A DNA stretch of 64,000 nt from Deltaproteobacteria bacterium. Its GTDB lineage: Bacteria; Desulfobacterota; Desulfarculia; JACQYL01. Under the pieces are notes generated by a model. That model did no database searches. It was not told the origin of the DNA and saw nothing but the letters and a program-made list of their open reading frames with translations. Positions 29,250-47,869 of the stretch are shown piece after piece (the stretch's first letter is position 1; the number at the start of each line of letters is the position of its first letter). Location: positions 62,001-126,000 of the forward strand of contig JACQYL010000123.1 of the NCBI GenBank assembly GCA_016208165.1, read 5' to 3'. A program made the translations under genes and the position numbers.

Positions 29250-31550
29250 TTAGCTCGGTTTGTCCGATGCTCGAAGCTTGGCGTCGGCTACCACGGCCTG
29301 GCCGAAACTGATACAGGCATCGTTGGTTGGAAGCTTCTCGTGCACATAGACTTCGAATTCCCAGTCCGCCAATCTCTGCACAGCCGTCTCGAACAGAAAT
29401 CGGTTCTGGAACACGCCGCCGCTCAATACCACCTGGTTGACGCCGCTTTCCTCTCTTGCCCGGTTGCATAACTCGGCCCAGGCCGAAATGAGGGTATGAT
29501 GGAAACGGGATCCAATCGTCCCCCTATGAACTCCGTTCAGCACGTCCATAACCAGGGGCCCGAACAAGGATTCCGACTTGAGGACAACGGTTCCGTTCTC
29601 CCGGACAATGTCGAAAGGATACTCGTCGGATTCCCTAAAATCGGAAAGCGCCTCGAGTTCGATCGCTGCTTGTCCCTCATACGTTACCAAATCCCGAATT
29701 CCGACAAGACTAGAGACCGCGTCGAACAGGCGCCCGCAACTGGAGGTCCGGGGCGTATGTATTCCCTTGTCCATCATTTGAACAAGAACATCGATTTTGC
29801 CCTCGTCGATCCTTTGCCATAAATCCAGATTCAACGACCTCATCCCTTCGCCGAAGGTACGGTACAAAAGACTTACCGCCATGCGCCAGGGTTCTTTAAT
29901 TGCCTTTTCTCCGCCCGGCATGAGTTGATTGGCAAAATGCCCCCACCGCTCGTAGCGGTCCATATGGGACAGCAGGACCTCCCCTCCCCAGACGGTTCCG
30001 TCCTCACCGTATCCCGTCCCGTCCATGGCCAGTCCTATCACAGGTCCTTGAAGCCCATGCTCTCCCATGCAGCTCGCAATATGCGCGTGATGATGTTGCA
30101 CGGCGATTCTTCTTTCAAACCGATGTTCCTCTTCTTTAGCGAAGACGGTGGTCATGTAATCGGGATGCAGATCGTGAGCCAGGATACGGGGACTGATCTC
30201 CAGAATACCCTCCAGATGGTCAATCGTGGCTTTGAAGAATTCGAACGTTTCCAGATTCTCCATATCCCCGATGTGTTGGCTGACGAAGGCCCGGTTCTCT
30301 TTTGTGAGACACACGGTGTTTTTCAACTCGCCCCCCGTAGCCAACGTTTCCACCGTGCTCTCTCCCAGGAAGATCGGCATGGGGACGTATCCGCGAGATC
30401 GTCGAAGGATACGTGGCTTTCCGCCTAGCACGCGCGTAACCGAGTCGTCGCATCGCTGATGGATCTTCCGGTTGTGCATCAAAAAAGCGTCCACAAACAC
30501 GCCGAGTCTTTGAAACGCCTCCTCATTCCCCGAGACGATGGGTTCCTCGCTCAAGTTGCCGCTGGTCATTACCAACGGTTTTCCGACGGCGTCCAGTAGC
30601 AGGTAATGCAGCGGAGTATATGGGAGCAGGACGCCGAAGTTGGGATTCAATGGAGCCACCTGCTCCGCTATATATCGAGTGTTCTTCTTCGACAAGAGCA
30701 CGATTGGACGCTGAGGGGATTCCAGAAGTGAAGCTTCTTCCGGATCCACCTTGGCAAACGCCCGAGCGTCCTCCACGTCCTTTACCATAATTGCCAGAGG
30801 TTTCTCGAACCGTTGCTTCCTGGTGCGCAGAAGCGTCACGGAATCGTTGCGTGTGGCGTCGACCGCCAGATGGAAGCCACCCAAACCCTTTACAGCGAGA
30901 ATGCGACCTTCGAGCAGGAGGTCGGCCGCCTTACGGATCGGATCCCCTGTCGGAATGGGATTGCCTTCCGCATCCCAGAGGGACAGTGAGGGTCCGCAGG
31001 ACCAGCATGCGTCGGGCTGAGCGTGGAATCGCCGGTCTTCCGGGTCCGTGTATTCTTCCAGACACTGCGGACACATGTCGAACTCGGACATGGTGGTCTT
31101 CGGGCGGTCGTAGGGAATGTCGCGGATAATCGTGTACCGGGGACCACAGTTTGTGCAATTGATAAAAGGATATCTGAACCGCCGATCGCCGGGATCGTAG
31201 AGTTCTGAAAGGCAGTCCTTACACACGCAGACGTCCGGTGATACAAGGGCTGAACGCTGCTCGCCGCCACGGCTGTGCTCTATTGAAAACCCGTCAATCG
31301 AGGCGAAAGGAAGCTCTTCCACTCGAACGTCGGTAATGTAAGCCAGTCTGGGAGGGTTCTTCTTTACGAGCGAAACAAACTCATCGATGTCACCGCTGGT
31401 CCCTGAAACCTCTATCTCGACGCCGCCGGCCGTATTGATCACAAAGCCGCCCAGGTTGAGTCTTCTTGCCAGGTTGTAGATAAACGGCCGGAATCCGACT
31501 CCTTGCACGATTCCAGAAACCAGCATTCGGATTCGACGATTGAGCGTCAA
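29250..31550 (-). CDS. hypF: Hydrogenase maturation carbamoyltransferase HypF
   Basis: The 766-residue protein makes the carbamoyl group that HypE turns into cyanide. In order it has an acylphosphatase domain (SGIVQGVGFRPFIYNLARR near residue 11), two zinc-finger CxxC pairs (CVCKDC...CTNC and CPQC...CWSC, about 90-185), a YrdC-like domain (about 200-390) and a Kae1-like domain (HHHAHIASCMGEHG near 480, GYGEDGTVWGGE, LSGGVFQNR near 725). The frame continues upstream into hypB; a TTG at 31550 overlaps the hypB stop codon, giving the usual N-terminus and coupled translation. An ATG at 31526 is an alternative. Confidence 0.93.
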   Translation of the reverse strand: MTLNRRIRMLVSGIVQGVGFRPFIYNLARRLNLGGFVINTAGGVEIEVSGTSGDIDEFVSLVKKNPPRLAYITDVRVEELPFASIDGFSIEHSRGGEQRSALVSPDVCVCKDCLSELYDPGDRRFRYPFINCTNCGPRYTIIRDIPYDRPKTTMSEFDMCPQCLEEYTDPEDRRFHAQPDACWSCGPSLSLWDAEGNPIPTGDPIRKAADLLLEGRILAVKGLGGFHLAVDATRNDSVTLLRTRKQRFEKPLAIMVKDVEDARAFAKVDPEEASLLESPQRPIVLLSKKNTRYIAEQVAPLNPNFGVLLPYTPLHYLLLDAVGKPLVMTSGNLSEEPIVSGNEEAFQRLGVFVDAFLMHNRKIHQRCDDSVTRVLGGKPRILRRSRGYVPMPIFLGESTVETLATGGELKNTVCLTKENRAFVSQHIGDMENLETFEFFKATIDHLEGILEISPRILAHDLHPDYMTTVFAKEEEHRFERRIAVQHHHAHIASCMGEHGLQGPVIGLAMDGTGYGEDGTVWGGEVLLSHMDRYERWGHFANQLMPGGEKAIKEPWRMAVSLLYRTFGEGMRSLNLDLWQRIDEGKIDVLVQMMDKGIHTPRTSSCGRLFDAVSSLVGIRDLVTYEGQAAIELEALSDFRESDEYPFDIVRENGTVVLKSESLFGPLVMDVLNGVHRGTIGSRFHHTLISAWAELCNRAREESGVNQVVLSGGVFQNRFLFETAVQRLADWEFEVYVHEKLPTNDACISFGQAVVADAKLRASDKPS

Positions 31551-32209
31551 TCCGTTCCCCGGATTTGTCGGATCTGTTCCTCCAACCAATTCGTCCACAG
31601 AGGAAGGCCTTCTCCCGTCGTAGCGGAGATTTCCAGCACCTTCAGATTGGGGTTAATCTCCGCGGATGCCCGGCGTATCACCTCGATTCGGCAGTTGATA
31701 TAGGGCAGAAGGTCAATCTTGTTGACCAGCAGCACACTGGACTCCTGAAACATCAAAGGGTATTTCTTGGGTTTGTCATCCCCTTCCGTTGTGCTCAGGA
31801 TCATCACTTTGTGGTGTTCGCCAACATCGAACTCCGCCGGGCAGACCAGATTACCTACATTCTCCACCACGAGCAGGTCCAAGGCGTCGAGATCCAACTG
31901 GGTCAGGGCTTCCCGAATCATGTTTCCATCCAAATGGCAAGCCCCGTCCGTATTGATTTGAACGACCTGGACGCCGTGCCCGGCAATGCGCTCCGCGTCC
32001 GTAGAGGTCTGAATGTCCCCTTCAATGACACCGATGCGGAACCGATCCTTCAACAAGTCGATGGTCTTTTCCAGAAGTGTGGTTTTGCCGGCGCCCGGGG
32101 AACTCATCAGGTTCAGGACCAGGATCCTCTTCGAACCAAAGAGCGTACGGTTCTCGTCGGCGATTCTCTTGTTGGCCTCTAAAATGTTTCTGACGACAGG
32201 TACTTTCAG
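31547..32209 (-). CDS. hypB: Hydrogenase maturation GTPase HypB, probable CTG start
   Basis: This is the nickel-inserting SIMIBI GTPase. The P-loop SSPGAGKTT (about 36-44), the metal-site region GACHLDG, ENVGNLVCPAEFD, and NKIDLLPY are intact. The first ATG (32107) lies directly before the P-loop and would delete the first beta strand. The upstream frame is open back to a TAG and encodes the conserved HypB N-terminus (VVRNILEANKRIADENR) without any ATG, GTG or TTG. A CTG at 32209-32207 sits seven bases after GGAGGG and gives 220 residues, the usual length, so I annotate that start. No His-rich nickel-storage stretch is present. Confidence 0.88.
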   Translation of the reverse strand: MKVPVVRNILEANKRIADENRTLFGSKRILVLNLMSSPGAGKTTLLEKTIDLLKDRFRIGVIEGDIQTSTDAERIAGHGVQVVQINTDGACHLDGNMIREALTQLDLDALDLLVVENVGNLVCPAEFDVGEHHKVMILSTTEGDDKPKKYPLMFQESSVLLVNKIDLLPYINCRIEVIRRASAEINPNLKVLEISATTGEGLPLWTNWLEEQIRQIRGTD

Positions 32210-35624: not shown

Positions 35625-36773
35625 CTAAAAAACGAACTGGAACTGCACACCGGCGAGCCACTCGGCGCCGAGGTCTTTGGTTCCGCCTGCGGCGACATTG
35701 ATGTCATCGCCGTATTCATAGTAGCCGACTTCCGGGCTGAGGGTAAAGCTTCCGGTGATCGAGTAGGGAATTCGGACGACGGCGGCATAGCGCGTATTGG
35801 AGTCGTCGTTCTCCCAGAGGTCGTTTTCTACGTGCTGTACGCCACCGATGAGGTGAACGGCCAGAGGCTTGCCACCGAAAGAAACGTCGAAGTAACCGCC
35901 CCAGCAGAGCGTGTCTTCAACTTCGCCATCGGCTGTGACCTGCACATTACCATTGGCATTCTGTCCGATGTAGCTCAGGTTGTAGAAACGGGAGTACACG
36001 GTACCGACGTTGTATCCCCAGTGACCGGACAGGTTCACGCCGAACATGCCGGCTTTGATGGAAACGGGCACTTCGATGACCCACGCATAAGCGGAGCTGT
36101 CCTTGTTCGTGGTGTCTTCGCCTTCAGCATGCTCGAAGGTGACGTTGGGCAGAATGGAGAAGGAAGCCGTGTTGACACCGGCCTGGAGATGAATGCGCGG
36201 TACGTAGTTGTACTCTTCGCCATCGCCGTCGAAGATGCCGAAGCGGTTGTTGGTGGAAAGACCGGCGGCGGCATAGAAAGCACCACCCTGGAAAATCAGG
36301 TTCGCCTGAGCGGCGCGGTCATAGATGTTGCCCCAGCCGGCCAAGATGATGTGAAGCGCACGACCCAAGCCGAACAACTGGGTGGGGTTGTAACGGGAGG
36401 CGCCGATCGGTTCCGTGTGACCGGCCTCAAAGCGGAAGTTGCCGAAATCGTACCAGCCGTACAGTTTACGGAAGTTGGCGTTTGCGAAGCCAACGCTGGT
36501 TTCGGTATCACTGCCGACACCAAGCTCGAAGTAGCCACCGCAGTCCTCGGTGGTGCACTTGGAGTACAAACGGGAATGATGTGGCTGGTCGATGAACACA
36601 TCGCCCACGCCGCCGTCCACCGTCGGATTTTGGGTCTTCATACGCTCGGTATCGCGGTAGTAGTAACCCAAGTCCGTATACGCCATCATACCAACGACAA
36701 AGTCCGCCTTCGCCGGCATCGCAATGCATAACGCAACGGTAAGCGCGGCGGCAAAAATAAACAACCTTTTCAT
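35625..36773 (-). CDS. Outer-membrane porin-like beta-barrel protein
   Basis: The 382-residue product has a clear signal peptide (MKRLFIFAAALTVALC, cut after AKA near 23). The mature part is made of alternating beta strands rich in Tyr, Phe and Gly, including YGWYDFGNFRFEAGHTEPIG and FGVNLSGHWGYNVG, and ends in Phe (QFQFVF), the BAM recognition feature. It resembles the medium-size porins common in sulfate-reducing Desulfobacterota. The start is preceded by AGGAGGAGAG. A perfect TTGACA lies about 185 bases upstream and a strong terminator follows, so it is a single-gene unit, possibly highly expressed. Substrate unknown. Confidence 0.85.
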   Translation of the reverse strand: MKRLFIFAAALTVALCIAMPAKADFVVGMMAYTDLGYYYRDTERMKTQNPTVDGGVGDVFIDQPHHSRLYSKCTTEDCGGYFELGVGSDTETSVGFANANFRKLYGWYDFGNFRFEAGHTEPIGASRYNPTQLFGLGRALHIILAGWGNIYDRAAQANLIFQGGAFYAAAGLSTNNRFGIFDGDGEEYNYVPRIHLQAGVNTASFSILPNVTFEHAEGEDTTNKDSSAYAWVIEVPVSIKAGMFGVNLSGHWGYNVGTVYSRFYNLSYIGQNANGNVQVTADGEVEDTLCWGGYFDVSFGGKPLAVHLIGGVQHVENDLWENDDSNTRYAAVVRIPYSITGSFTLSPEVGYYEYGDDINVAAGGTKDLGAEWLAGVQFQFVF

Positions 36774-36914
36774 TTTCTCTCCTCCTAAAAGATCCTTACA
36801 AAGGTAACTACAAAACAAACCCTCTCAAATAACCCTTTCAATTCCTACTTCCGACTCACCTCCTTTGGCTTGAAATGTCGAACAACCTCTCCGTCTAGAA
36901 GCCGGAAACCTGCA

Positions 36915-37697: not shown

Positions 37698-38846
37698 TCA
37701 GAACGGCGGCAACCAACTCCGTCCGAAGAAACCTTTTGTCGTATAGAGAATGCCCACGTACAAGGCCAGCAAAACGAAAATACGCTTGAGCCAGATGTCG
37801 GGGATGTACTTGGACGTTCGCGGTCCGATCATGGAACCGACGAAGATGCCGATGAGTTCAATGCCGATCAGCCCCCAGTCAACGATCACTTCCTGGGTAA
37901 CCATATAGGTAAAGATGGACACGATCATGCCGATCAGCACCGTCAGCGCCGATGTGCCGGCCACGAGGAACATCGGGAGCCCGGCAATGGAGGTCAGGAA
38001 CGGAACAAACAGAAAGCCGCCGCCCACACCGATAAACGAGGCCACCGCCGCAATGGCAAAACCTCCGATGACCGGAACGATGGGACTGAAACTGAATTCG
38101 ACCCCGTAAAAGCTGAATCGAATCCTGGAAACGCCCCAATTACTGACTTTCACGCCCGCCGGAACCTGTCGCCCTTCGCCCTTGTCTTTGATGGATTTCT
38201 CGAAGGCCGTCGCCGCGGCTTTGGCTTCCTTTTTCCGCGCCTGCCCTCTGGGAGTGGTCTCGTAGAACAGAAAACCGCCGATGATGAAAACGACAACTCC
38301 GAAATAACCTAAGTAAGCGCTGAGGTTGATCTTACCGGCAGTGAGATACGGCACCAGATAGGAGCCGAGGATCGAACCTATGGCCAGGCACACGCCGAGG
38401 GGAAGCACCAGGCGGCCCATGCGATAGTAATTCAGAGAACTGATGAATGCGCTCAGCCCCACCAGCCACTGGTTGGATACGCGAATGGAGTCGGTGATCG
38501 CCTTATTGAGAAGGTCCCCCTTGCCGAAGGATTTGGCGTAGTCTCCGAGCCCGAACACGGTAATGTGGCCCACGCCCGCCATAATGCCGCCAAAGGCGCC
38601 GACGCTGGAGAATATCCAGCCCACCCAAATGGCCCATAGGAAACCGATGATGTAGCTCACATCGGACCCGCCGGGAATCCCTAAATAACCGGGTTTCGCC
38701 CCGGCATCGATTTTGCCCTCGGTAATCGCTTTTTGAATGGCGTCGCTCAGGGCGTCCGCCAGCGCGTTTCCGGAGAGCAAAAACAATATCAACGGCACGA
38801 ATACAAGAATGAAACAAACGGCAAACACAGGTGTTCGAGACTTCAT
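37698..38846 (-). CDS. TauE/SafE-family (TSUP) anion exporter
   Basis: The 382-residue protein has a signal-anchor-like first helix (residues about 7-27), then about eight more membrane helices and the TSUP glycine signature FIGVGGGFLFVPFLTSIAG near 275. A hydrophilic cytoplasmic loop of about 60 residues (about 195-250, Lys/Glu-rich) separates the two halves, a feature the other TSUP protein at 20.0-21.1 kb shows less strongly. Sulfite, sulfoacetate or another small anion is the likely substrate. GGGAGG precedes the ATG at 38846; the 18 upstream codons are not needed. The small membrane protein gene downstream is probably cotranscribed. Confidence 0.87.
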   Translation of the reverse strand: MKSRTPVFAVCFILVFVPLILFLLSGNALADALSDAIQKAITEGKIDAGAKPGYLGIPGGSDVSYIIGFLWAIWVGWIFSSVGAFGGIMAGVGHITVFGLGDYAKSFGKGDLLNKAITDSIRVSNQWLVGLSAFISSLNYYRMGRLVLPLGVCLAIGSILGSYLVPYLTAGKINLSAYLGYFGVVVFIIGGFLFYETTPRGQARKKEAKAAATAFEKSIKDKGEGRQVPAGVKVSNWGVSRIRFSFYGVEFSFSPIVPVIGGFAIAAVASFIGVGGGFLFVPFLTSIAGLPMFLVAGTSALTVLIGMIVSIFTYMVTQEVIVDWGLIGIELIGIFVGSMIGPRTSKYIPDIWLKRIFVLLALYVGILYTTKGFFGRSWLPPF

Positions 38847-39055
38847 AGGGCACCTCCCAAAATTGGGGTGAAGCAAATATGCAAAAGCCGATCCCTCCAC
38901 TGATCCAGGGCGGCGATATTTACAGCGTCCGGATACGCGTTCGCGTCCCGATGATCCACGCGATTCGACTGAATGCTGTCCATAATACTTCTAAGACGGA
39001 CTCGATGCAACGGTTCTTTGGGAGTGAACGACCGTGTCCGAAGCAATGCCGGATG

Positions 39056-39937
39056 TCACTTCCCCGGATCGGGTCCGGGTTTCTTCCGGCCTTCTTCCGC
39101 AAACTCGAGAATTCGGCTCAGCATGACTTCATACGCTTGAACCGTCGGCGAATCCGGATTGCGTTCGACGAGCGGCACGCCTTCGTCTCCCGAAAGCACC
39201 AACTCCGGGTCCAGGGGAATACGTCCCAAAAAAGGTACGCCGGCCATAGCGGCCAGGCGTTCGCCTCCACCGCTCTTGAAAAGATCTATAACCCCCCCGC
39301 AGTGCGGACAGTTCAAGCCGCTCATGTTCTCGACAATTCCCGCAACCTGCATATTCAACTGTCGGCAGAAACGAACGGATTTACGAACGTCCGCGAGGGA
39401 GATTTCCTGCGGCGTGGTTACGATCACAGCGGCGGCATCCGGGACGGTCTGAGCCACGGTCAGCGGCTCGTCACCGGTTCCGGGCGGAGCGTCCATTACC
39501 AGAGCATCCAGGTTCCCCCAAGGCACGTCCGAAATAAACTGGCGAATCATATTCGCTTTCAGCGGCCCTCTCCAAATGACGGATGCGTCCTTGTCTCGCA
39601 GGAGGGATTCGAGAGAAACCACTTCAAATCCCTCTCGGTACATGATGGGTTCGATGGTCTGGTCCTTGTGAATCTCCGCGATCCGGTCTTTGATGCCCAA
39701 CAGTCCCGGTATGCTGGGGCCATGGAGATCGACGTCGAGAAGGCCGACCGAAAAGCCTCTTTTGTAAAAGGCCATAGCCAGGTTCACGGCCACCGTGCTC
39801 TTACCCACTCCGCCTTTGCCACTCGTAACGAGTAATTTGAGTCGAATGCGTTCCAGGGCGCGCCTGATTATTTCGTCCTGAACCGCCTTGATCGCTCCGC
39901 GGCAAGATTTCTTTTTTGTATCGGATTCTTTTTCCAA
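39056..39937 (-). CDS. Mrp/ApbC-type P-loop ATPase (Fe-S carrier)
   Basis: The 293-residue protein carries the deviant Walker A SGKGGVGKST, switch motifs DVDLHGPSIPGLLG and DAPPGTGDEPL, and the C-terminal CPHC pair that binds the bridging Fe-S cluster, all typical of Mrp/ApbC/Nbp35 proteins that load clusters onto apoproteins. The TTG at 39937 was chosen because GGGGGG lies just upstream and because the longer frame would overlap the radical SAM gene by 64 bases. It lies at the end of a run of genes whose products need several Fe-S clusters (a radical SAM protein; HdrABC further upstream), which may be its clients. Confidence 0.87.
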   Translation of the reverse strand: MEKESDTKKKSCRGAIKAVQDEIIRRALERIRLKLLVTSGKGGVGKSTVAVNLAMAFYKRGFSVGLLDVDLHGPSIPGLLGIKDRIAEIHKDQTIEPIMYREGFEVVSLESLLRDKDASVIWRGPLKANMIRQFISDVPWGNLDALVMDAPPGTGDEPLTVAQTVPDAAAVIVTTPQEISLADVRKSVRFCRQLNMQVAGIVENMSGLNCPHCGGVIDLFKSGGGERLAAMAGVPFLGRIPLDPELVLSGDEGVPLVERNPDSPTVQAYEVMLSRILEFAEEGRKKPGPDPGK

Positions 39938-39981
39938 TTTTTCCCCCCGCAAATTCGCGGTGGAGACGACGCCCCGAGCCG

Positions 39982-41127
39982 CTACACGTCGCCTCCCGCT
40001 CTCAGGCGCGATCCGAGGGACGATGATGAAGTGCTTTCGTCCCACCTGCGGTCTTTCTCGGATGGGCGTTGAGGTTCTCGACAGCCGGCACTCTCCAAAA
40101 CGGCGGATCTGACTTTCGCCATTTCCTCATCGTTCGGGAGATACGGGTAGTTCCACTGACGTACGCCCGGCAGGCAGTTGCCGAACGGACGGTTGCACGC
40201 CGGAGCGCCTTCCGGTCCCGGGCAGCCGGACGTCATAAACGGAACGCGTTCATCGACCAGGTCTGAAAGCTGTTCCTTCCCGAGCCCGAATCCGATGATG
40301 CGGCCTTCATCGTCGAATTCGAACTCCCCTGCGCTGCGGATCTCCTTTTCCACGAGCCAGCGAGCCAGTTGAAGACGTAAATAGGTGCTCCATGGAGGTT
40401 GCGGCAGATGAGCGAGCGCGGATGCGGATTCAGCGAAAAAACTGAAAAGATGGATCAGAGCGCCTTCATCGTGCACGCGCTGGAATACGTATGCGAGATC
40501 GCGTTCACTTTCTCCCAATCCCACCATCAAGTGCACGCTGACGCTTCCTTTTCCGAAAAGAGAAACCGCTGTTCGGACCGTGTCCCAGTAATGGTCCCAT
40601 TTGTGAGGTCCCCGAACTCCTGATCCCCGGTACCGGCTGAAGAGATCCGGGTGGGCCGTATCTACGGCCACGCCGAGCATTTGAATGCCCGCGTCCCGAT
40701 AGTTCTCCAGTTGACTTCCGGACAGGATCGTGGGAGCGCACAAGACGGAAATCGGGAGGGACACACGGCTCCGAAACTGAGCGGCCACGAGAAGAGTATC
40801 GGCAACGGCCCTCGGATTGGTTACCATCGAGATGCAGACCCTTCCCAGGTGTTTCTGCTTCTCCCGGACGCGGTCCGCAATGTCGCTCACTTTCCCGGCC
40901 GGCCATTCCACCTTGATAAAACTCTTGTCAGCGAAATTTCCGGGTCGTTTACGAGCCAGACCGCAATAAGCGCAATTGGCGAAACACCCTTCCCGATAGT
41001 TCAGCAACAGATTGACGCACAAGTTGCGGGCCTGCCGGTAAAATCTTCCCCGGACGAACCCCAGTTCCATGGCCGTAGCCGTGCTCATTCTGACGTATTC
41101 AGGACTTTCACAGGATTCTTGAGGCAT
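39982..41127 (-). CDS. Radical SAM protein, candidate lipoyl-synthase-type enzyme
   Basis: The 381-residue protein has the radical SAM cluster motif C-x3-C-x2-C in REGCFANCAYCGLARKR (about 47-63), followed by strand/helix units of a partial TIM barrel (VCISMVTNP, LPISVLCAPT, QMLGVAVDTA, VSVHLMVGLGE). The C-terminal region has extra cysteines (TSGCPGPEGAPACNRPFGNC, near 300-320) that could bind an auxiliary cluster. It lies 60 bases after the lipoate ligase gene and 45 bases before mrp. LipS-type radical SAM enzymes make lipoate on carrier proteins near LbpA genes, so a sulfur-insertion role is plausible; that is inference. LipS enzymes usually come as a pair and I see only one. Confidence 0.82.
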   Translation of the reverse strand: MPQESCESPEYVRMSTATAMELGFVRGRFYRQARNLCVNLLLNYREGCFANCAYCGLARKRPGNFADKSFIKVEWPAGKVSDIADRVREKQKHLGRVCISMVTNPRAVADTLLVAAQFRSRVSLPISVLCAPTILSGSQLENYRDAGIQMLGVAVDTAHPDLFSRYRGSGVRGPHKWDHYWDTVRTAVSLFGKGSVSVHLMVGLGESERDLAYVFQRVHDEGALIHLFSFFAESASALAHLPQPPWSTYLRLQLARWLVEKEIRSAGEFEFDDEGRIIGFGLGKEQLSDLVDERVPFMTSGCPGPEGAPACNRPFGNCLPGVRQWNYPYLPNDEEMAKVRSAVLESAGCREPQRPSEKDRRWDESTSSSSLGSRLRAGGDV

Positions 41128-41187
41128 CGTTGCTCACCATGCGTGAAATGAGACCGGGAGCCGGTGCAGGAGCATCCGGGGATGGGA

Positions 41188-42306
41188 TTATGCCCTTCCA
41201 TGAGGCGCCCGATCGGAGTATGGAGGACCCTGGGCTTTGTCGCAAACGGTCTTGGCGGCCACGATCGCATCTCGAAGGGCCTCGGGGGAGACACCGTATA
41301 TCAGATCCGGCTCCCAGACTTCCCTGATGGCCTGCAGAATCCGATCCGGCTCCGCAAGGGTCCATTTCAGCGCCGACTCGAGCCGGTTGAGTTGCTCGGT
41401 TGTCGAAAAGAAATCTCCCGTGATGATAACCTGGTCGATGGCATGACCTGCGGTGGACAGGTAGACCTGGAGCAGTCCGCCCGGCGTCTTCACCAGGGCT
41501 TCTCCCATGTTCGACGGGGGATGTCTGTGGGAAAAAATCCAATGTTCGTCGCAATAGCGTCCCTTCTCAAGATCAGCCGCCTTTTCCCGCTCGGGCGGTG
41601 TCAACTCGCTCTGAACGAAGCGGATGCCGAACGACTCTTCAAACGAAGATCGGATTGCATGAATGGCTTCATCCATGGTGACATCGCGGTGCGTTTCCTT
41701 GCGTATCGTAGTCAGCCGTTCACTGAAGCAGCTGTACCCTTTGTCGTAGATCTTTTGCGCCGGTGTGTTCATAATGTCCAGCATCAAGTTCACATCGAAA
41801 TCCACTAGAATGCTGGCGTGGAAAAGGACGCAATCTCCGACTTCCGCGGACGCCGACAAGCCGGCAAGCTTTTTCCCCGCAACTTCGAGATCGTTCTTTG
41901 GCCTGAAACTCGCCGACACGCCCAAGCGTTCCAATGCACGAACCAAAACACCGCTCATGACGCGAAACACTCCGCCGACGCCACTTCCGATCCGTTTATC
42001 CCGAAGGGAAATGCCAAAGCCCAGCGCCACCACGTCCGGCCCCATAATAACGGTTCCGCCGCCGGTACTGCGCCGGTTGAAAGCAACTCCGCGCTCGCGG
42101 CATCGGTCCAGCTTCAGAGCCGCGTGGATATCCTGGTATTTCCCCACGATGGCTGCCGGCTCGAACGTATACAGATGGAGGATCGGCGGCGATCCGAAGT
42201 CCGATATGGAATAGGCTAAAAGGTCGTCTACAGCCAATCCACCGGCCGCCGGCACCAGTCGCCGCCAATCTTCCAGCAATCTCCATTTCTCGGCCTTCTC
42301 TGTCAC
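41188..42306 (-). CDS. Lipoate-protein ligase
   Basis: The 372-residue protein has the biotin/lipoate ligase fold: NRRSTGGGTVIMGPD (about 80-94, substrate and adenylate binding) and KNDLEVAGKKLAGLSAS (about 136-152), including the catalytic Lys. A C-terminal accessory domain follows (LEKGRYCDEHWIFSHR, MVKT-like strand, helix to the end), as in LplA/LplAB proteins. It transfers lipoyl-AMP or octanoyl-AMP to a Lys of a carrier. The GTG start overlaps the stop of the upstream GcvH-like gene (GTGA), which strongly suggests that protein is its substrate; the frame further upstream overlaps that gene and was not used. Confidence 0.9.
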   Translation of the reverse strand: MTEKAEKWRLLEDWRRLVPAAGGLAVDDLLAYSISDFGSPPILHLYTFEPAAIVGKYQDIHAALKLDRCRERGVAFNRRSTGGGTVIMGPDVVALGFGISLRDKRIGSGVGGVFRVMSGVLVRALERLGVSASFRPKNDLEVAGKKLAGLSASAEVGDCVLFHASILVDFDVNLMLDIMNTPAQKIYDKGYSCFSERLTTIRKETHRDVTMDEAIHAIRSSFEESFGIRFVQSELTPPEREKAADLEKGRYCDEHWIFSHRHPPSNMGEALVKTPGGLLQVYLSTAGHAIDQVIITGDFFSTTEQLNRLESALKWTLAEPDRILQAIREVWEPDLIYGVSPEALRDAIVAAKTVCDKAQGPPYSDRAPHGRA

Positions 42307-42743
42307 GACGATTTTGCCTTTTCCTCCTCGGCTTTGGCGATTTCCTCGGAAATCCATGGGCCCACGCTTTCCCCGTGGTACAGATTGGCCTTTTCCTCCT
42401 CCAGGTTAGCCGCTTTCATCTTGAATATCCAACCCGCTCCATAGGGGTCCGTGTTAACGAGAGTAACTTCGTCTTCCAGCTCTTCGTTGATCTCGAAAAT
42501 CTCACCTGAAAGAGGGGTGCAGAGCTTTCCAATCCATTTTCTGCTCTGAATCTTGCCGCACACTTCGCCCTGTTCGACTTCCTCGTCCACTTCAGGCATA
42601 TCGACAAATACAATGTCGCCCGCTTCCTTTTGAAAGAAGTCGTTCATGCCTACTGTGACCGTTCCGTCTTTCTCTATACGGGCCCAGCTATGTTCCTCGT
42701 GATAGTACAGTTCGTCCGGCAGTACATACCCTTCAAGCTCCAT
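42303..42743 (-). CDS. GcvH-like lipoate-binding carrier protein (LbpA-type)
   Basis: The 146-residue protein is a single lipoyl domain of the GcvH family: YYHEEHSWARIEKDGTVTVG at the N-terminus, AGDIVFVDMPEVDEEVEQGE, then the lipoyl-lysine hairpin GKIQSRKWIGKLCTPLSGEI (about 70-89) and a C-terminal helix with WIFKM. Glycine-cleavage GcvH typically has a SVKAAS-like lysine turn; the IQS-x-KW form here is like the lipoate-binding LbpA proteins tied to sHdr sulfur oxidation. No glycine-cleavage P or T genes lie nearby. GGAGAGG precedes the ATG. The downstream ligase gene overlaps its stop codon. Confidence 0.88.
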   Translation of the reverse strand: MELEGYVLPDELYYHEEHSWARIEKDGTVTVGMNDFFQKEAGDIVFVDMPEVDEEVEQGEVCGKIQSRKWIGKLCTPLSGEIFEINEELEDEVTLVNTDPYGAGWIFKMKAANLEEEKANLYHGESVGPWISEEIAKAEEEKAKSS

Positions 42744-43598
42744 GAGACCCTCTCCTCTCCGATTCAGACGGTTAGATTCGCTTGTCCTCTCGTCGGGCAT
42801 CCCCTGCAACGGCGGCGCGGCTGAGAGAAAGACGCCGGAAGGGCGTCACCTTGATGTTGTCGCGGCCCAAAAAGTACACTCCAACGATCGGTTGACGACG
42901 TCTTCCGGGGTCGGCGGATTGTCTGTCGCATGTTATTTCCTCGAGCGATCCAAGAGTTCTTGTGCTTCGTTGACAAACAGCCGAATCTCGTACACGTTTT
43001 CACATCCCTGCAACTGTCCTTCCACACTCCGGGTTCGGAGTTGCCCCACGTCGGGATGGGCGTACTCCAGACTTCCTACACAGATACTGCCTCCACGGTT
43101 ATGGCAAACCCGTCGGCCCGGATACAGCGGCTCGCCGGGGGTGAGTGTTTCACGACAGCCCCGGTGCTCCCAATACTTCCTTTTTGAAGTCATCGTTCTG
43201 ATCCAATTTCGAAGAGTTACAGCGAAATCACGTTGAATGGCCCCCGATTGACGCAGTTGGTCCGCATACGCGTCTCAACCTGGTTTTTTCCCCATTGAAC
43301 AGGAGAAAACGCCGGATCCGCAGGAACGGCTTTGAAACCCCCTTCTGCGCATTTTCGTGTCGTTTTGCAGGGGCGGTTCGCGACCAGGCTTCGTCACGCC
43401 CAGGGCGTGACTATGCCGTGGCGCGACCGACCCTACATACAATCACGCTTCCGCTCCTGTCGCTCCCCTGGGAACGCCGAGCCCCCGCTCGGCAAAAACC
43501 GCCCTACGTCTCATCCTCGGCCCCGTTCATTCGTACACCACAAAGGGGCACGGCACGGGGATGTGCATCCAGTCTTCGTCCGACATGGCCCTACGGTC
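42744..43598. other. 855-base gap between hdrA and the lipoate-carrier gene
   Basis: It holds one doubtful small frame (42933-43193, minus) and two hairpins in the part next to hdrA: the perfect palindrome GTCACGCCC-a-GGGCGTGAC (43393-43411) and GCCGAG-cccccg-CTCGGC (43475-43492). The sequence 43350-43520 looks like intergenic repeat DNA. Whether hdrA and the carrier gene share a transcript is therefore open. Confidence 0.5.
42933..43193 (-). CDS. Doubtful small protein between hdrA and lipoate carrier
   Basis: The 86-residue frame starts MTSKRKYWEHRGCRE and ends YEIRLFVNEAQELLDRSRK. It contains four Cys and a plausible C-terminal helix and lies in the same orientation as its neighbours. The ribosome-binding site is poor (GGA, ten bases upstream). 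I do not recognise it; it may be a real small gene or the remnant of one. Confidence 0.38.
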   Translation of the reverse strand: MTSKRKYWEHRGCRETLTPGEPLYPGRRVCHNRGGSICVGSLEYAHPDVGQLRTRSVEGQLQGCENVYEIRLFVNEAQELLDRSRK

Positions 43599-46394
43599 TC
43601 ACGAGGCCAGAAGAGCGGATATCTGTGCTGAAAGGTCTTTGTTCGAAGTGGAATCCATGGAGATCGCTTCCGCAGGGCACTCGCTTACGCAGACACCGCA
43701 CGCGCGACAGAGGACCGGGTCGATATGACTTTTTCCCCGTTCTTTCGCCGCGGGAGCGCCGTAAGGACATACCCGAACGCACGCCAGACAAACCCTGCAC
43801 AGGTCTTCATTCACCACCGCACTATAACGCGTCCGCTGGAAATTTCGAAGCCAGGCGACGGCTCTCCCCGCAGCCGCCTGCGCCTGAACGATCGCTTCGT
43901 CAACGGATTTGGGAGACTGGGCCATTCCTGCAACATACACGCCTCCGACGCCTAAATCGACACTACTCATGGGCATTGAGGCCTCTTTCAGAAATCCGTA
44001 CTCATCCGGCTCACATCCTTCGACGCCTTCCCAGAACCTGGATACGACCGGTTGGATGGCCGAAGCCAGGACCAGTCGATCCGCACGGATTTGAAGCTCG
44101 GCTTTCAGCAGCTCGTCCCTGACGGTCACCTGTATACGGCCGTCCCGAATTTCGACGGCGGGTTTGCGTTCAGGGTGGAACCGCACAAAGAAAACGCCCT
44201 TTTCGCGAGCTTCCCTGTAAAGATCCTCCCGCAAACCATAGGTCCGTATGTCCCTATATAAAATGAAGATGCGGGATTCGGGATTCACGCGCTTGACGGC
44301 CAGGGCGCTCTTGATGGAATGCGTGCAACAAACGCGGCTGCAATAGGGGCGTCCGGGTTCTCTCGAACCCACGCATTGTATGAATATCAGGGTGTTCGGG
44401 TCCCGCAGTTCCACGTTCTCGTTCCGGACAAGATCGTCGAACTCCAGGTGCGTCATAATAGAAGGATGTTCGCCGAACTTGTATTCCTCAGGAATCGTCT
44501 CCTCGGCCCCGGTCGTAATGAGCAGGACACCATGTTCCATGGTCCTGCTCCGGCCGGAACCGTCTTTGAGCACAGAGGTGAAGTCGCCGCGCCGGCCCCG
44601 GACCTCCTCGACGGTGGTGTTCCGGACCAGCTCCAGAAGTTCCTCGCGCCCGGCCTGTGCGACCAGATCTTTTATGAAAGAGCCGACGGGCTGACCCGAC
44701 CAACTCGAGACCAGGCGGCGCGCATTCCCGCCCCACTCACCGGACTGCTCCACCAGAGTGGTGCGAACCCCCAGGCGGCACAATTCCAAGGAGGCGTATA
44801 AACCGGTCACACCGCCCCCCACGACCAGGGCGTTGTCCCGGCAGGCGACAGCCGTACCTTCTGAAACGGTTCTGTGAGCCACGGACGTTACCGCGCCTAT
44901 GATCTGTCTGACGGCCTTCTCCCGAGCCGAGTTCCCGGCGCCCTGGTGCACCCAGGCGCACTGCTCCCGCAGGTTGGCCATTTCAACAAAGCGGGCCGGA
45001 AGTCCGGCGTCGATACAACTGTTCTCGAAGAGTCGGCCAAGGACCCGGCTCGAACAGGCCGCTACGACGATGCGATTCAATCGTTCCGATTCGATACGGG
45101 AGCGGATCTGCGATCGAGATGCATCGGAGCATGCAAACATCATTTCTTCGGCGTGCACGACTCCGGGTAGTTTCCCCGCCGCCTCTGCGATCTCTCGAAG
45201 GTCCAGTACTTTCCCCATGTTGAGCCCGCAGTGGCAAACAAACACTCCGATCCGGGCTACGCCGGGATCCTCCCTGGAAATCGTGGAGACATCGAACTTC
45301 GTCGCAGCCGGCGTACCCAGGTCACGAACACAGGCCGCCGCCGCCGCGGATGCCTGGACGAGACTTTCGGCCACGTCTTTGGGGCCTTGAAACGAGCCGC
45401 AAACGTAAATCCCCCGCCTTGAAGTCTCGACCGGAGAGAAATCGTACGTGCGGCAAAAACCATAGCGATCGAGTCCCACGTCCAACAGGCGGGCCGTGCG
45501 TTGCGCCTCCTCGGAAGGTCCCAGACCTACGCTGAGCACCACCAGGTCGAACTCCTCGTCCCTGTAGATTCCGCCTTCGGACTCGCAGACCAGGCGGAGG
45601 TTCCCGGATCCCCCCACTTCTTCGACGGCGGCGACCCTGGCGTACTCGAAGGCCAAATTGTGCCGCTCCCGCGCGTGCTCGAAATAGTCGTCCAACCCTT
45701 TATCATGAGCCCGAACGTCCATGAAAAACAGGGTTGATTTGACGTCCGGAGCAAGTTCATGCGCCGATATGGCTTCCTTGACGGCGAAGGCGCAGCAGAC
45801 GGACGAGCAATATCCGCGCCCGCAGGTCTCGTCCCGGGATCCTACGCACTGCAGGAACGCTATGTTCCGAGGCGCCTTTTCATCGGAAGGGCGGAGCAAC
45901 CCTCGGGTACGCGTTCTGCCCGGACGCATCCATTGCTCGAATTCCAAGCCGGTTACGACGTTGGGAAAGCGTCCGTAGCCCCACTCGGGTTTAAGGGACG
46001 CATCGAAGGCCTCGCAACCCGTCGCCAATATGACGGCGCCGACGCGCACCGTTTCTTCAACGGTTGCGCCATCGGGGGGTGCAACCGCAAAGGTCGCTTG
46101 AAATGCTCCCGCCTCGCCGGAAACCGATAAAAGGCGTGCATTAGGCACAATTCGTATTCGCGGCCGAAGCGCAACATCTTCCAAACGTCCTGAAAGCACG
46201 CAATCCGCACAGTCGTTGGTGGGGAAGAGTTTATCCAGTCTATTCAATAGGCCGCCTGCCTCGGCTTCATGCTCCAGAATGATGGACGCCACGCCGAATT
46301 CGTCCAGATCCAGCGCTGCCTGGAGTCCGGCGATACCGCTTCCCAGAATCAGGACCGCAGGTTGTAAAGTGTTGAAAGCGTTCATGTCCGTCAT
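43599..46394 (-). CDS. hdrA: HdrA-like flavoprotein with two FAD modules
   Basis: The 931-residue protein is a duplicated HdrA. Module 1 (about 1-370) has an FAD motif (LILGSGIAGLQAALDL), the DCADCVLSG segment and FLQCVGSRDETCGRGYC. Module 2 starts near 378 with the HdrA iron-sulfur domain (VFVCHCGLNMGKVLDL, FACSDASRSQI), then a second FAD motif (LVVGGGVTGLYASLEL, near 535), FIQCVGSREPGRPYCSRVCC, and ends in two [4Fe-4S] ferredoxin motifs (Cys866/869/872/876 and 896/899/902/906). HdrA proteins bifurcate or relay electrons between low-potential donors and HdrBC. It lies 77 bases downstream of hdrB. The double architecture is also seen in other anaerobes; its donor is not evident. Confidence 0.92.
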   Translation of the reverse strand: MTDMNAFNTLQPAVLILGSGIAGLQAALDLDEFGVASIILEHEAEAGGLLNRLDKLFPTNDCADCVLSGRLEDVALRPRIRIVPNARLLSVSGEAGAFQATFAVAPPDGATVEETVRVGAVILATGCEAFDASLKPEWGYGRFPNVVTGLEFEQWMRPGRTRTRGLLRPSDEKAPRNIAFLQCVGSRDETCGRGYCSSVCCAFAVKEAISAHELAPDVKSTLFFMDVRAHDKGLDDYFEHARERHNLAFEYARVAAVEEVGGSGNLRLVCESEGGIYRDEEFDLVVLSVGLGPSEEAQRTARLLDVGLDRYGFCRTYDFSPVETSRRGIYVCGSFQGPKDVAESLVQASAAAAACVRDLGTPAATKFDVSTISREDPGVARIGVFVCHCGLNMGKVLDLREIAEAAGKLPGVVHAEEMMFACSDASRSQIRSRIESERLNRIVVAACSSRVLGRLFENSCIDAGLPARFVEMANLREQCAWVHQGAGNSAREKAVRQIIGAVTSVAHRTVSEGTAVACRDNALVVGGGVTGLYASLELCRLGVRTTLVEQSGEWGGNARRLVSSWSGQPVGSFIKDLVAQAGREELLELVRNTTVEEVRGRRGDFTSVLKDGSGRSRTMEHGVLLITTGAEETIPEEYKFGEHPSIMTHLEFDDLVRNENVELRDPNTLIFIQCVGSREPGRPYCSRVCCTHSIKSALAVKRVNPESRIFILYRDIRTYGLREDLYREAREKGVFFVRFHPERKPAVEIRDGRIQVTVRDELLKAELQIRADRLVLASAIQPVVSRFWEGVEGCEPDEYGFLKEASMPMSSVDLGVGGVYVAGMAQSPKSVDEAIVQAQAAAGRAVAWLRNFQRTRYSAVVNEDLCRVCLACVRVCPYGAPAAKERGKSHIDPVLCRACGVCVSECPAEAISMDSTSNKDLSAQISALLAS

Positions 46395-46471
46395 TTGAAC
46401 CTGCGCGACTCTGAATGTGCAATAACAAAGAAAGATTTCAAAACGGCTCCCGGAACTTCGCCGTTCCGACC

Positions 46472-47344
46472 CTATAATCCCAGCTTGGCGAGCAGGGCCT
46501 TTGGCTTAATCACGTTCTGTTTGAATCCCAGGTCTTTGGGACTCAATCCCATTCCCAGCCCGAGCACTTGCGTGATGAACAGGACCGGAAGCTCGACGCG
46601 ATGACCCGACTCGCTGTCCGCTCCGATCTGATTCGATTCGTACATGACCGAACAGAAGGGACACGCCAGGGTCAACGCATCCACTTGCACGTCCGCGAGG
46701 GCGTTCAGCTTGCCGTGGGCCACAGCCACGGCTGTGTCCGGGTCGGACGCCATGACCGGTCCGCCGCAACACTTGGTCTTTCCGGGGTAGTTCACCGGCT
46801 CGGCCGAGGTGAGCGCCGTCAACCGATCCAGGGAACGCGGCGCCTCGACTTCGTCGAAGTGATGTATCTCCGAGGGCTTCAGAAAATGACATCCGTGATG
46901 CGAAGCGATGCGCAGCGCCGAAAGATCCGTAACCATCTTCTTACCGATGGTTTCCAGACCCACTTCTTCGTGAAGCACGTGAACGATGTGACGTACCTTC
47001 ACGCCTCCTCCGTAGCTCAGTCCGATACGCGCCAGCTTGATATTGACGCGCTCTCTGAGAGGGACGTTTTCCTGCAAAAGCTTGGCGGCTTCCGCCAGCG
47101 AGGATCCGCAGGAACTGCACAGCGTAAGAACATCAAGCCCTTCGCGCAGCGCCAACGCCAGATTGAAGGCGGAAAGTGTGAGCGCCTCTTCCGAATCCAT
47201 GGACTTGATCGGAAATCCGCAGCAGGCAAACTGGGGAATGTCCACTAGCCGGAGGCCAAGCGCCCCACACACTTGTCGTGCCGAGGCCTCGTAGTTCCGG
47301 CTTCGAGCCGGGATGGTGCAACCCAGAAAAAGAGCATAAGCCAT
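46472..47344 (-). CDS. hdrB: HdrB-like heterodisulfide reductase subunit
   Basis: The 290-residue protein has the two CCG-type cysteine motifs that bind the noncubane [4Fe-4S] clusters of HdrB: FLGC followed by FACCGFP and CSSCG in the first half, and HHGCHF, TKCCGGP and CPFC in the second. In methanogens this subunit reduces the CoM-S-S-CoB disulfide; in bacteria the substrate is unknown and could be another disulfide or a lipoamide. The start is ATG at 47344, with AGGT six bases upstream; an overlapping GTG precedes it. It is 51 bases after hdrC. Confidence 0.92.
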   Translation of the reverse strand: MAYALFLGCTIPARSRNYEASARQVCGALGLRLVDIPQFACCGFPIKSMDSEEALTLSAFNLALALREGLDVLTLCSSCGSSLAEAAKLLQENVPLRERVNIKLARIGLSYGGGVKVRHIVHVLHEEVGLETIGKKMVTDLSALRIASHHGCHFLKPSEIHHFDEVEAPRSLDRLTALTSAEPVNYPGKTKCCGGPVMASDPDTAVAVAHGKLNALADVQVDALTLACPFCSVMYESNQIGADSESGHRVELPVLFITQVLGLGMGLSPKDLGFKQNVIKPKALLAKLGL

Positions 47345-47395
47345 CACACTACCTGTACCATAGGATTGACTACACGTTGCCGCCCCATCGGTGGG

Positions 47396-47869
47396 CTAAT
47401 CTTCCGCCAGCAGCACACCCACGTTTTCGATACAGGTAGGCAGTTCCGGCAAGTCCAGTTTTTGGCGTTTCTTATTGTCGAATTCGCTGATTTCGTAAAT
47501 GCGCCCCATTTGGAGGATTCGTTCTTTCTGCGTCCGGACGCCTTGCGGAACGTTACCGTACCGATAGGCCATGTTCTTCAGCACGCGCATAAGCTCGGCA
47601 ATGTGAATTCCCTGGGGGCATCTTTCCTGGCAGGCGTAACAGTTCGAACACAACCAGACGAAATCGCTTTGCAGCACCTCCTGCTTCATACCCAGAAGGC
47701 ACATGCGTATCAAACGACGGGGATTAAAGGCTTCGTTTACTTCTCGGACGGGGCAACTCATGGTGCACGTTCCGCAGGCAAAACAGCGACGGATCCCCTC
47801 GCCGCCGGGCTGCGCAATGATCTCTTCAGCAAAATCCGGATGAAGTTCGTCTACGGAGATGATCCGCAC
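47396..47869 (-). CDS. hdrC: HdrC-like iron-sulfur subunit
   Basis: The 157-residue protein has two [4Fe-4S] binding motifs, CFACGTCTMSCP (about 29-40) and CSNCYACQERCP (about 74-85), and a helical C-terminus (ERILQMGRIYEISEFD), the standard HdrC pattern for wiring HdrA to HdrB. It has no membrane helices. The GTG start has GGAGG five bases upstream. It leads the hdrC-hdrB-hdrA operon. Confidence 0.92.
   Translation of the reverse strand: MRIISVDELHPDFAEEIIAQPGGEGIRRCFACGTCTMSCPVREVNEAFNPRRLIRMCLLGMKQEVLQSDFVWLCSNCYACQERCPQGIHIAELMRVLKNMAYRYGNVPQGVRTQKERILQMGRIYEISEFDNKKRQKLDLPELPTCIENVGVLLAED

Follow-up and report, generated by a model that had tools for sequence, protein, structure and literature searches.

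The hdr-carrier locus

The DNA analysed here is a stretch of 64,000 nucleotides from contig JACQYL010000123.1 of a Deltaproteobacteria bacterium, hereafter the window. It encodes a heterodisulfide reductase (Hdr) of the HdrABC type next to a GcvH-like lipoyl carrier and the proteins that would load this carrier. We conclude that carrier and Hdr are very probably linked in function, and that the carrier may well be the missing disulfide partner of HdrABC. The genes at the locus are as follows, with positions counted along the window and amino acids abbreviated as aa.

47396..47869, minus strand: HdrC (TIGR03290, 3.9e-32), with two [4Fe-4S] motifs (CFACGTCTMSCP, CSNCYACQERCP)
46472..47347, minus strand: HdrB (TIGR03288, 8.4e-74), with both Cys-rich CCG (non-cubane cluster) sites intact
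43599..46394, minus strand: double HdrA, 931 aa, in which an N-terminal flavin adenine dinucleotide (FAD) half is followed by a complete HdrA and by a 2x[4Fe-4S] part at the C-terminus
42744..43598: gap of 855 bp with no recognised gene
42303..42743, minus strand: GcvH-like lipoyl carrier, 146 aa (PF01597, 1.3e-38), with predicted lipoyl Lys69 in CGKIQSRKWIGK
41188..42306, minus strand: lipoate/octanoate-protein ligase (PF21948, TIGR00545), with LplA-B_cat and C-terminal domains
39982..41127, minus strand: LipS2-like lipoyl synthase, a radical S-adenosylmethionine (SAM) protein with the motif CFANCAYC and a Cys-rich C-terminus (CPGPEGAPACNRPFGNC)
39056..39900, minus strand: Mrp/NUBPL P-loop Fe-S carrier ATPase (PF10609, 7.8e-93)

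These seven genes stand on one strand in the order that a preliminary description of the sequence had given, and the 855 bp from the HdrA stop to the carrier ATG agree exactly with it. The HdrABC feature set is complete (two CCG motifs in HdrB, two [4Fe-4S] motifs in HdrC, FAD and ferredoxin domains in HdrA), with scores of all three proteins that stay below the NCBIfam equivalog cut-offs. With one HdrC, one HdrB and a 931-aa HdrA, the set is indeed of the HdrABC type with a double HdrA and not of the sHdr type. Double HdrA proteins are known as 'type II' HdrA (PMC12054007), and the layout found here recurs, at 37-39% identity, in the HdrA of carrier-linked archaeal loci and of locus L186.

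The ATG of the carrier at 42743 has GGAGAGGAG ahead of it. The predicted structure (predicted local distance difference test 91.9) has the H-protein (lipoyl hammerhead) fold, and its best match in the PDB is 3ab9 (template modelling score 0.83 by query and 0.96 by target, root-mean-square deviation 1.0, 41% identity). With this glycine cleavage H protein the carrier shares the fold and the position of the lipoyl lysine, but it differs in having KWIGK instead of KAAx, in its linkage to Hdr and in belonging to a genome without GcvP. Lys69 is invariant. The motif Lys-Trp-[IVL]-[GA]-[KR] (KW[IVL][GA][KR]) is present in every Hdr-adjacent carrier that has the lipoyl lysine, whereas the canonical GcvH of the same genome (contig C29) has Lys-Ala-Ala-Val (KAAV) at that site.

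As described earlier, the ligase start overlaps the carrier stop, the GTG at 42306 sharing bases with the carrier TGA as GTGA. The best family for the radical SAM protein, in which CxxxCxxC is present, is LipS2 (NF053743; the match spans the whole model with 200 bits, the cut-off being 270). A candidate for LipS1 (34% identity to the query, E 1.7e-58) is encoded outside the window, on contig C88. The start codon of Mrp is uncertain, as similarity to homologues sets in near residue 64 of its 329-aa frame; at this locus Mrp presumably supplies clusters.

Recurrence seen from HdrB

Searches within the phylum covered 395 genomes of Desulfobacterota. With the window HdrB as sole query, 24 of the 39 top loci had a GcvH-like gene no more than 6 kb away from HdrB, compared with none of the 20 next-tier controls at 38-42% identity (Fisher p = 2e-6, for a tier boundary picked from the ranking and controls from one clade, hence not from 59 independent draws). 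Among the 15 top loci without a carrier, ten come from genomes that have the carrier-ligase cassette at another place, and contig ends truncate two more. Each of the eight genomes that gave the best non-self HdrB matches holds the carrier or its ligase cassette. Because a control search with PlsY ranked no carrier or cassette genome in about the first 80 places, genome kinship is not the reason for these common matches, and species relatedness was rejected as their cause. A tree of HdrB sequences, made by a quick method, joins the window HdrB to six HdrBs of genomes with the carrier-ligase-LipS2 cassette (support 98) and places all controls together on a single long branch (support 100); the window HdrB is a member of the carrier-linked group. 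The HdrB-first test and the tree together make chance adjacency unlikely. The suggestion that a lipoyl carrier works with a non-sHdr HdrABC and a double HdrA is well supported by these counts, by the agreeing tree and by recurrence in several phyla.

A protein of 1569-1596 aa is also conserved beside HdrB in cassette genomes (L228, L231, L232, L233, L241 and L242). Its copy in L228 has no NCBIfam match, and in some loci it adjoins branched-chain amino acid type ABC transporter genes.

Recurrence seen from the ligase and the carrier

The clade of the window ligase is sharp, with 53-59% identity in 14 further genomes among the 395 and at most 36% for the remaining ligases, leaving aside a 60-residue ligase fragment at a contig end in G128. 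The usual order in genomes of this clade is hisD-carrier-ligase-LipS2, with no Hdr. In G092 and G128, the carrier lies within an HdrB-carrier-GlcD-CCG-hypothetical-ligase arrangement, in G128 with HdrC ahead. A search based on LipS2 mostly returned the general LplA-LipS2 type and was uninformative about Hdr.

Scanning conserved peptides of the carrier against 84,980 species gave 80 loci, or 81 with the window, from Desulfobacterota, Thermoplasmatota, WOR-3/Stahlbacteria and a few others. The hisD type accounts for 45 of the 81, which leaves 36 loci of other kinds. HdrA/B/C, GlcD or CCG genes lie within 9 kb in 27 of these 36 loci, spanning Desulfobacterota, Thermoplasmatota and WOR-3, and HdrA/B/C genes in 14; an 'HdrA' label in L113 was rejected as a small ferredoxin-like match that is not to count as Hdr. 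Outside the hisD type, the carriers most similar to that of the window (69% identity) are those of L110 and L111, contigs of G067 and G103, genomes whose ligase is elsewhere. There the genes for HdrB, HdrC and carrier follow one another directly, at intervals of about 15-30 bp. A neighbourhood of Hdr and carrier is conserved in relatives, and no carrier was found next to glycine-cleavage genes, so that neither of the refuting conditions set in the preliminary description holds.

The usual operon of relatives reads HdrA-HdrA-(HdrC)-HdrB-carrier-GlcD. An alternative one reads HdrC-HdrB-HdrA-MvhD-FrhB-like-Fer4-DHODb-like-GlcD, with carrier and CCG protein encoded opposite. The archaeal locus L175 has GlcD-CCG-ligase-HdrC-HdrB-HdrA opposite LipS1-LipS2-carrier, and L171 from WOR-3 has LarA, two LDH/MDH genes, carrier, GlcD, CCG, ligase, HdrC and HdrB. 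Genes for acyl-CoA ligase and 2-hydroxyacyl-CoA dehydratase neighbour the operons of relatives, and in a few loci MetV-MetF does.

In the 45 hisD-type loci (within L112-L188), hisD is directly upstream of the carrier, and Nudix, ChaN and UvrC genes are there too. HisD was rejected as a functional partner of the carrier, the arrangement with these genes alongside looking like conserved synteny. Ten hisD-type genomes were also found by the HdrB search and hold the matching Hdr genes elsewhere in the genome.

It could be argued that the two halves of the window are unrelated operons which stand 855 bp apart by chance. The gap itself, a gene order that differs from that of relatives and the separation of Hdr genes and cassette in several relatives are in keeping with this; however, the nearest homologues of the window HdrB come from genomes with the same cassette, and the carrier is directly beside HdrB-HdrC in L110 and L111. 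We regard such a coincidence as most improbable. The gap gave no Rfam match and no site resembling a sigma-70 promoter, nor any terminator beyond what chance would give, and a structured RNA, promoter or terminator was rejected on that ground. Its sole inverted repeat is an imperfect palindrome (31-nt, 74%) at 43371-43433.

Fusion proteins

In two unrelated genomes a single protein joins a receiver-like domain to a GcvH domain without the lysine and to HdrC, namely at L186 (10450-11772) and in G092 (L245, 10233 onward, 450 aa); the receiver domain was assigned by reading the sequence. Both fusion genes adjoin HdrB and HdrA, and in L186 an intact carrier precedes the fusion. Since a GcvH domain is fused to HdrC, these proteins argue that the GcvH fold may dock on HdrC/HdrB, and the fusion looks like a phospho-regulated form of such docking.

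Locus L245 holds two further receiver-GcvH proteins without the lysine. Proteins of about 310 aa that combine a Cys-rich N-terminal region with a GcvH domain without lipoyl lysine are encoded on contig C24 of the window genome (L063:9773-10708) and at L186:18288-19214.

Lipoyl proteins of the window genome

The preliminary description noted no glycine-cleavage or 2-oxoacid dehydrogenase genes that could use a lipoyl carrier. This is correct for the window, and for glycine decarboxylase GcvP it is correct genome-wide: PF02347 had no match in the assembly (5.69 Mb in 142 contigs, 95.5% complete). The family was likewise unmatched in the cassette genomes G092, G433, G380, G240 and G162, and GcvP is present in 10 of 16 cassette genomes. 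Glycine cleavage was rejected as the partner of the carrier, given the lack of GcvP. For 2-oxoacid dehydrogenases the statement does not extend to the genome, which has four E2 genes, along with four lipoamide dehydrogenase (Lpd) genes above cut-off and six GcvH-like genes.

GcvH of Bacillus subtilis passes octanoyl or lipoyl groups on to E2 subunits, and the carrier might similarly be an assembly intermediate that hands such groups to the E2 of the four 2-oxoacid dehydrogenases. The four E2 and four Lpd genes, the ligase and synthase genes adjoining the carrier and the hisD-type loci, which lack an obvious neighbouring redox partner, are compatible with such a relay. However, it would leave unexplained the adjacency to Hdr, CCG and GlcD genes in several phyla, the HdrB-first result and the HdrC fusions. 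The genome also has a second lipoate locus, on contig C121 (L039:8787-12706), with a ligase bearing an extra C-terminal part (519 aa), a LipT-like FAD protein and LipS2. A relay of this kind is very unlikely in our judgement.

Proposed function

Flavin-based bifurcation by HdrABC is known chemistry, and the disulfide of methanogens is that of coenzyme M (CoM) and coenzyme B (CoB), CoM-S-S-CoB. HdrABC is also widespread in anaerobes not known to make CoM or CoB, and we know of no disulfide that has been assigned to it there. A dedicated lipoyl carrier with a short motif, encoded next to HdrB in many lineages, is a concrete and testable candidate partner. From established HdrABC chemistry, we infer that HdrB and a GlcD-CCG pair are the two stations of this carrier: the lipoyl disulfide probably serves as a soluble two-electron substrate of HdrB, in a role akin to that of CoM-S-S-CoB in methanogens.

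The adjacent ligase would load octanoate or lipoate onto Lys69, and the carrier, if octanoylated, would be sulfurated by LipS2 with the LipS1 encoded elsewhere. The lipoyl dithiol/disulfide would then be the substrate of the non-cubane clusters in HdrB of the window type, and the double HdrA would split or merge electron pairs, the complex moving electrons between ferredoxin plus a two-electron partner (according to lineage NADH, H2 or F420H2) and the lipoyl disulfide. A second enzyme would recycle the carrier; in most relatives this may be the GlcD flavoprotein with an HdrD-like CCG iron-sulfur protein, oxidizing 2-hydroxyacids such as lactate. In the window genome, the second station is perhaps found on contig C104 (L061:3001-9584), where genes for a multihaem cytochrome, GlcD, a CCG protein, a carrier (SGKWLGK) and another CCG protein follow each other. 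Because lactate oxidation to NAD+ is uphill and requires confurcation, as in Ldh-EtfAB (PMC9232219), a ferredoxin-driven route could plausibly lead from hydroxyacid via the carrier to NADH or H2. We likewise infer the lipoylation of the carrier, its redox reaction with HdrB and the direction thereof, and the link to hydroxyacids in the window genome.

Several points weigh against this proposal. The 45 carrier loci of Desulfobacterota with a hisD neighbour have no nearby Hdr, and the 20 control HdrBs form a single clade, which makes the HdrB result a contrast between clades rather than loci. The LipS2 assignment is under the curated cut-off, the LipS1 candidate is only 34% identical to its query, and a joint transcript across the 855-bp gap is putative. 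Among the annotated genes of the window, which lie between its left 29 kb and its right 8 kb, no GlcD was found. Finally, the Hdr-type methylene-tetrahydrofolate (methylene-THF) reductase of Sporomusa ovata did not respond to free lipoate or dihydrolipoate (PMC9430772).

A lipoyl carrier that serves HdrB would give lipoate a part in anaerobic electron bifurcation, beyond its roles in acyl transfer and sulfur oxidation. More tentatively, carriers with the KWxG motif could, as protein-bound lipoyl disulfides, generally take the place of CoM-S-S-CoB as the substrate of HdrB in anaerobes other than methanogens, both bacteria and archaea. If so, they would tie flavin-based bifurcation to the metabolism of 2-hydroxyacids and hydrogen, and possibly of methylene-THF.

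Comparison with known systems

Two further genes follow Mrp on the same strand, and their membership of the system is uncertain.

37698..38900, minus strand: TauE/SafE-family anion permease, the next gene after Mrp
35625..36818, minus strand: open reading frame for a likely outer-membrane beta-barrel protein, no family match

The first of these bears on sulfur transfer, in which the dihydrolipoyl arm would, as proposed for LbpA, bind sulfane-sulfur or sulfite, HdrABC would oxidize or reduce it and TauE would export the product. The sHdr-LbpA system of Hyphomicrobium and Thioalkalivibrio is established for sulfur oxidation, and LbpA is its essential GcvH-like partner with a dedicated ligase (PMC6067878, PMC10332631). 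Both systems bring together in one neighbourhood a GcvH-like carrier outside glycine cleavage, an LplA-type ligase, a LipS-type radical SAM synthase and Hdr genes. The genome moreover contains dsrA, which is consistent with the anaerobic host that the preliminary description had supposed. In contrast to the hdrC1B1A-hyp-hdrC2B2 order with a small HdrA in sHdr, however, the window has no second HdrB/HdrC pair and no small HdrA. Most LbpAs have cysteines near the N- and C-terminus (absent in some archaeal LbpAs), whereas the window carrier lacks this pair, has its only cysteines at -7 and +6 relative to the lipoyl lysine, and carries the KWIGK motif. Membership of sHdr was rejected, as neither gene set nor cysteine pattern fits. 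Instead of sulfur genes, the loci of relatives have GlcD, LarA, LDH, hydrogenase, CoA ligase and 2-hydroxyacyl-CoA dehydratase genes as neighbours, which rather suggest a 2-hydroxyacid dehydrogenase, lactate racemase and hydrogenase; the host also differs from sHdr-LbpA organisms as an anaerobe with dsrA. We consider sulfur transfer unlikely. Of the lipoamide-linked disulfide or sulfur-transfer pathway first suggested for this locus, the link between carrier and Hdr is well supported, and for sulfur transfer the downstream TauE gene gives a faint hint.

The idea that a GcvH disulfide might serve HdrB has been voiced once already, for one archaeal class: in Culexarchaeia, GcvH is encoded in an Ehe hydrogenase/HdrA2B2C2 cluster, and the lipoyl disulfide was suggested as the HdrB substrate replacing CoM-S-S-CoB (PMC9723716). 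A GcvH-like gene beside HdrABC is common to that cluster and the window. That proposal concerned one gene cluster, with a group 4 hydrogenase, SdhA and CdhA, whereas the window has other partners and a dedicated ligase, and the case made here across phyla is statistical, phylogenetic and fusion-based. Group 4 [NiFe]-hydrogenase, SdhA and CdhA are absent from the annotated Hdr and carrier neighbours, the annotation covering all of the window but 29 kb on the left and 8 kb on the right. We found no account of the carrier family or its recurrence in the open-access literature searched, which leaves out most subscription papers and all preprints.

With HdrABC-MvhAGD of methanogens and HdrA2B2C2, the window shares the HdrA/B/C domains and an HdrB with two CCG sites; unlike methanogens, its bacterium is not expected to have the CoM/CoB disulfide, and no MvhD is adjacent in the window. 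The Hdr-type methylene-THF reductase MetVF-HdrABC-MvhD of Moorella and Sporomusa resembles the window in its large two-flavin HdrA and in an HdrB whose partner has been sought and remains unidentified (PMC9430772); no lipoyl carrier has been described for it. MetV-MetF genes adjoin an HdrA-HdrA-HdrC-HdrB-carrier-GlcD operon in L257 (4474-6022) and in L266.

Other genes near the locus

L110 and L111 too encode a homologue of the beta-barrel-like protein (37-46%) just downstream of their carrier. HypF and a CobW/HypB-like gene, for hydrogenase maturation, lie at 29250-32107 of the window on the same strand as the Hdr and carrier genes.

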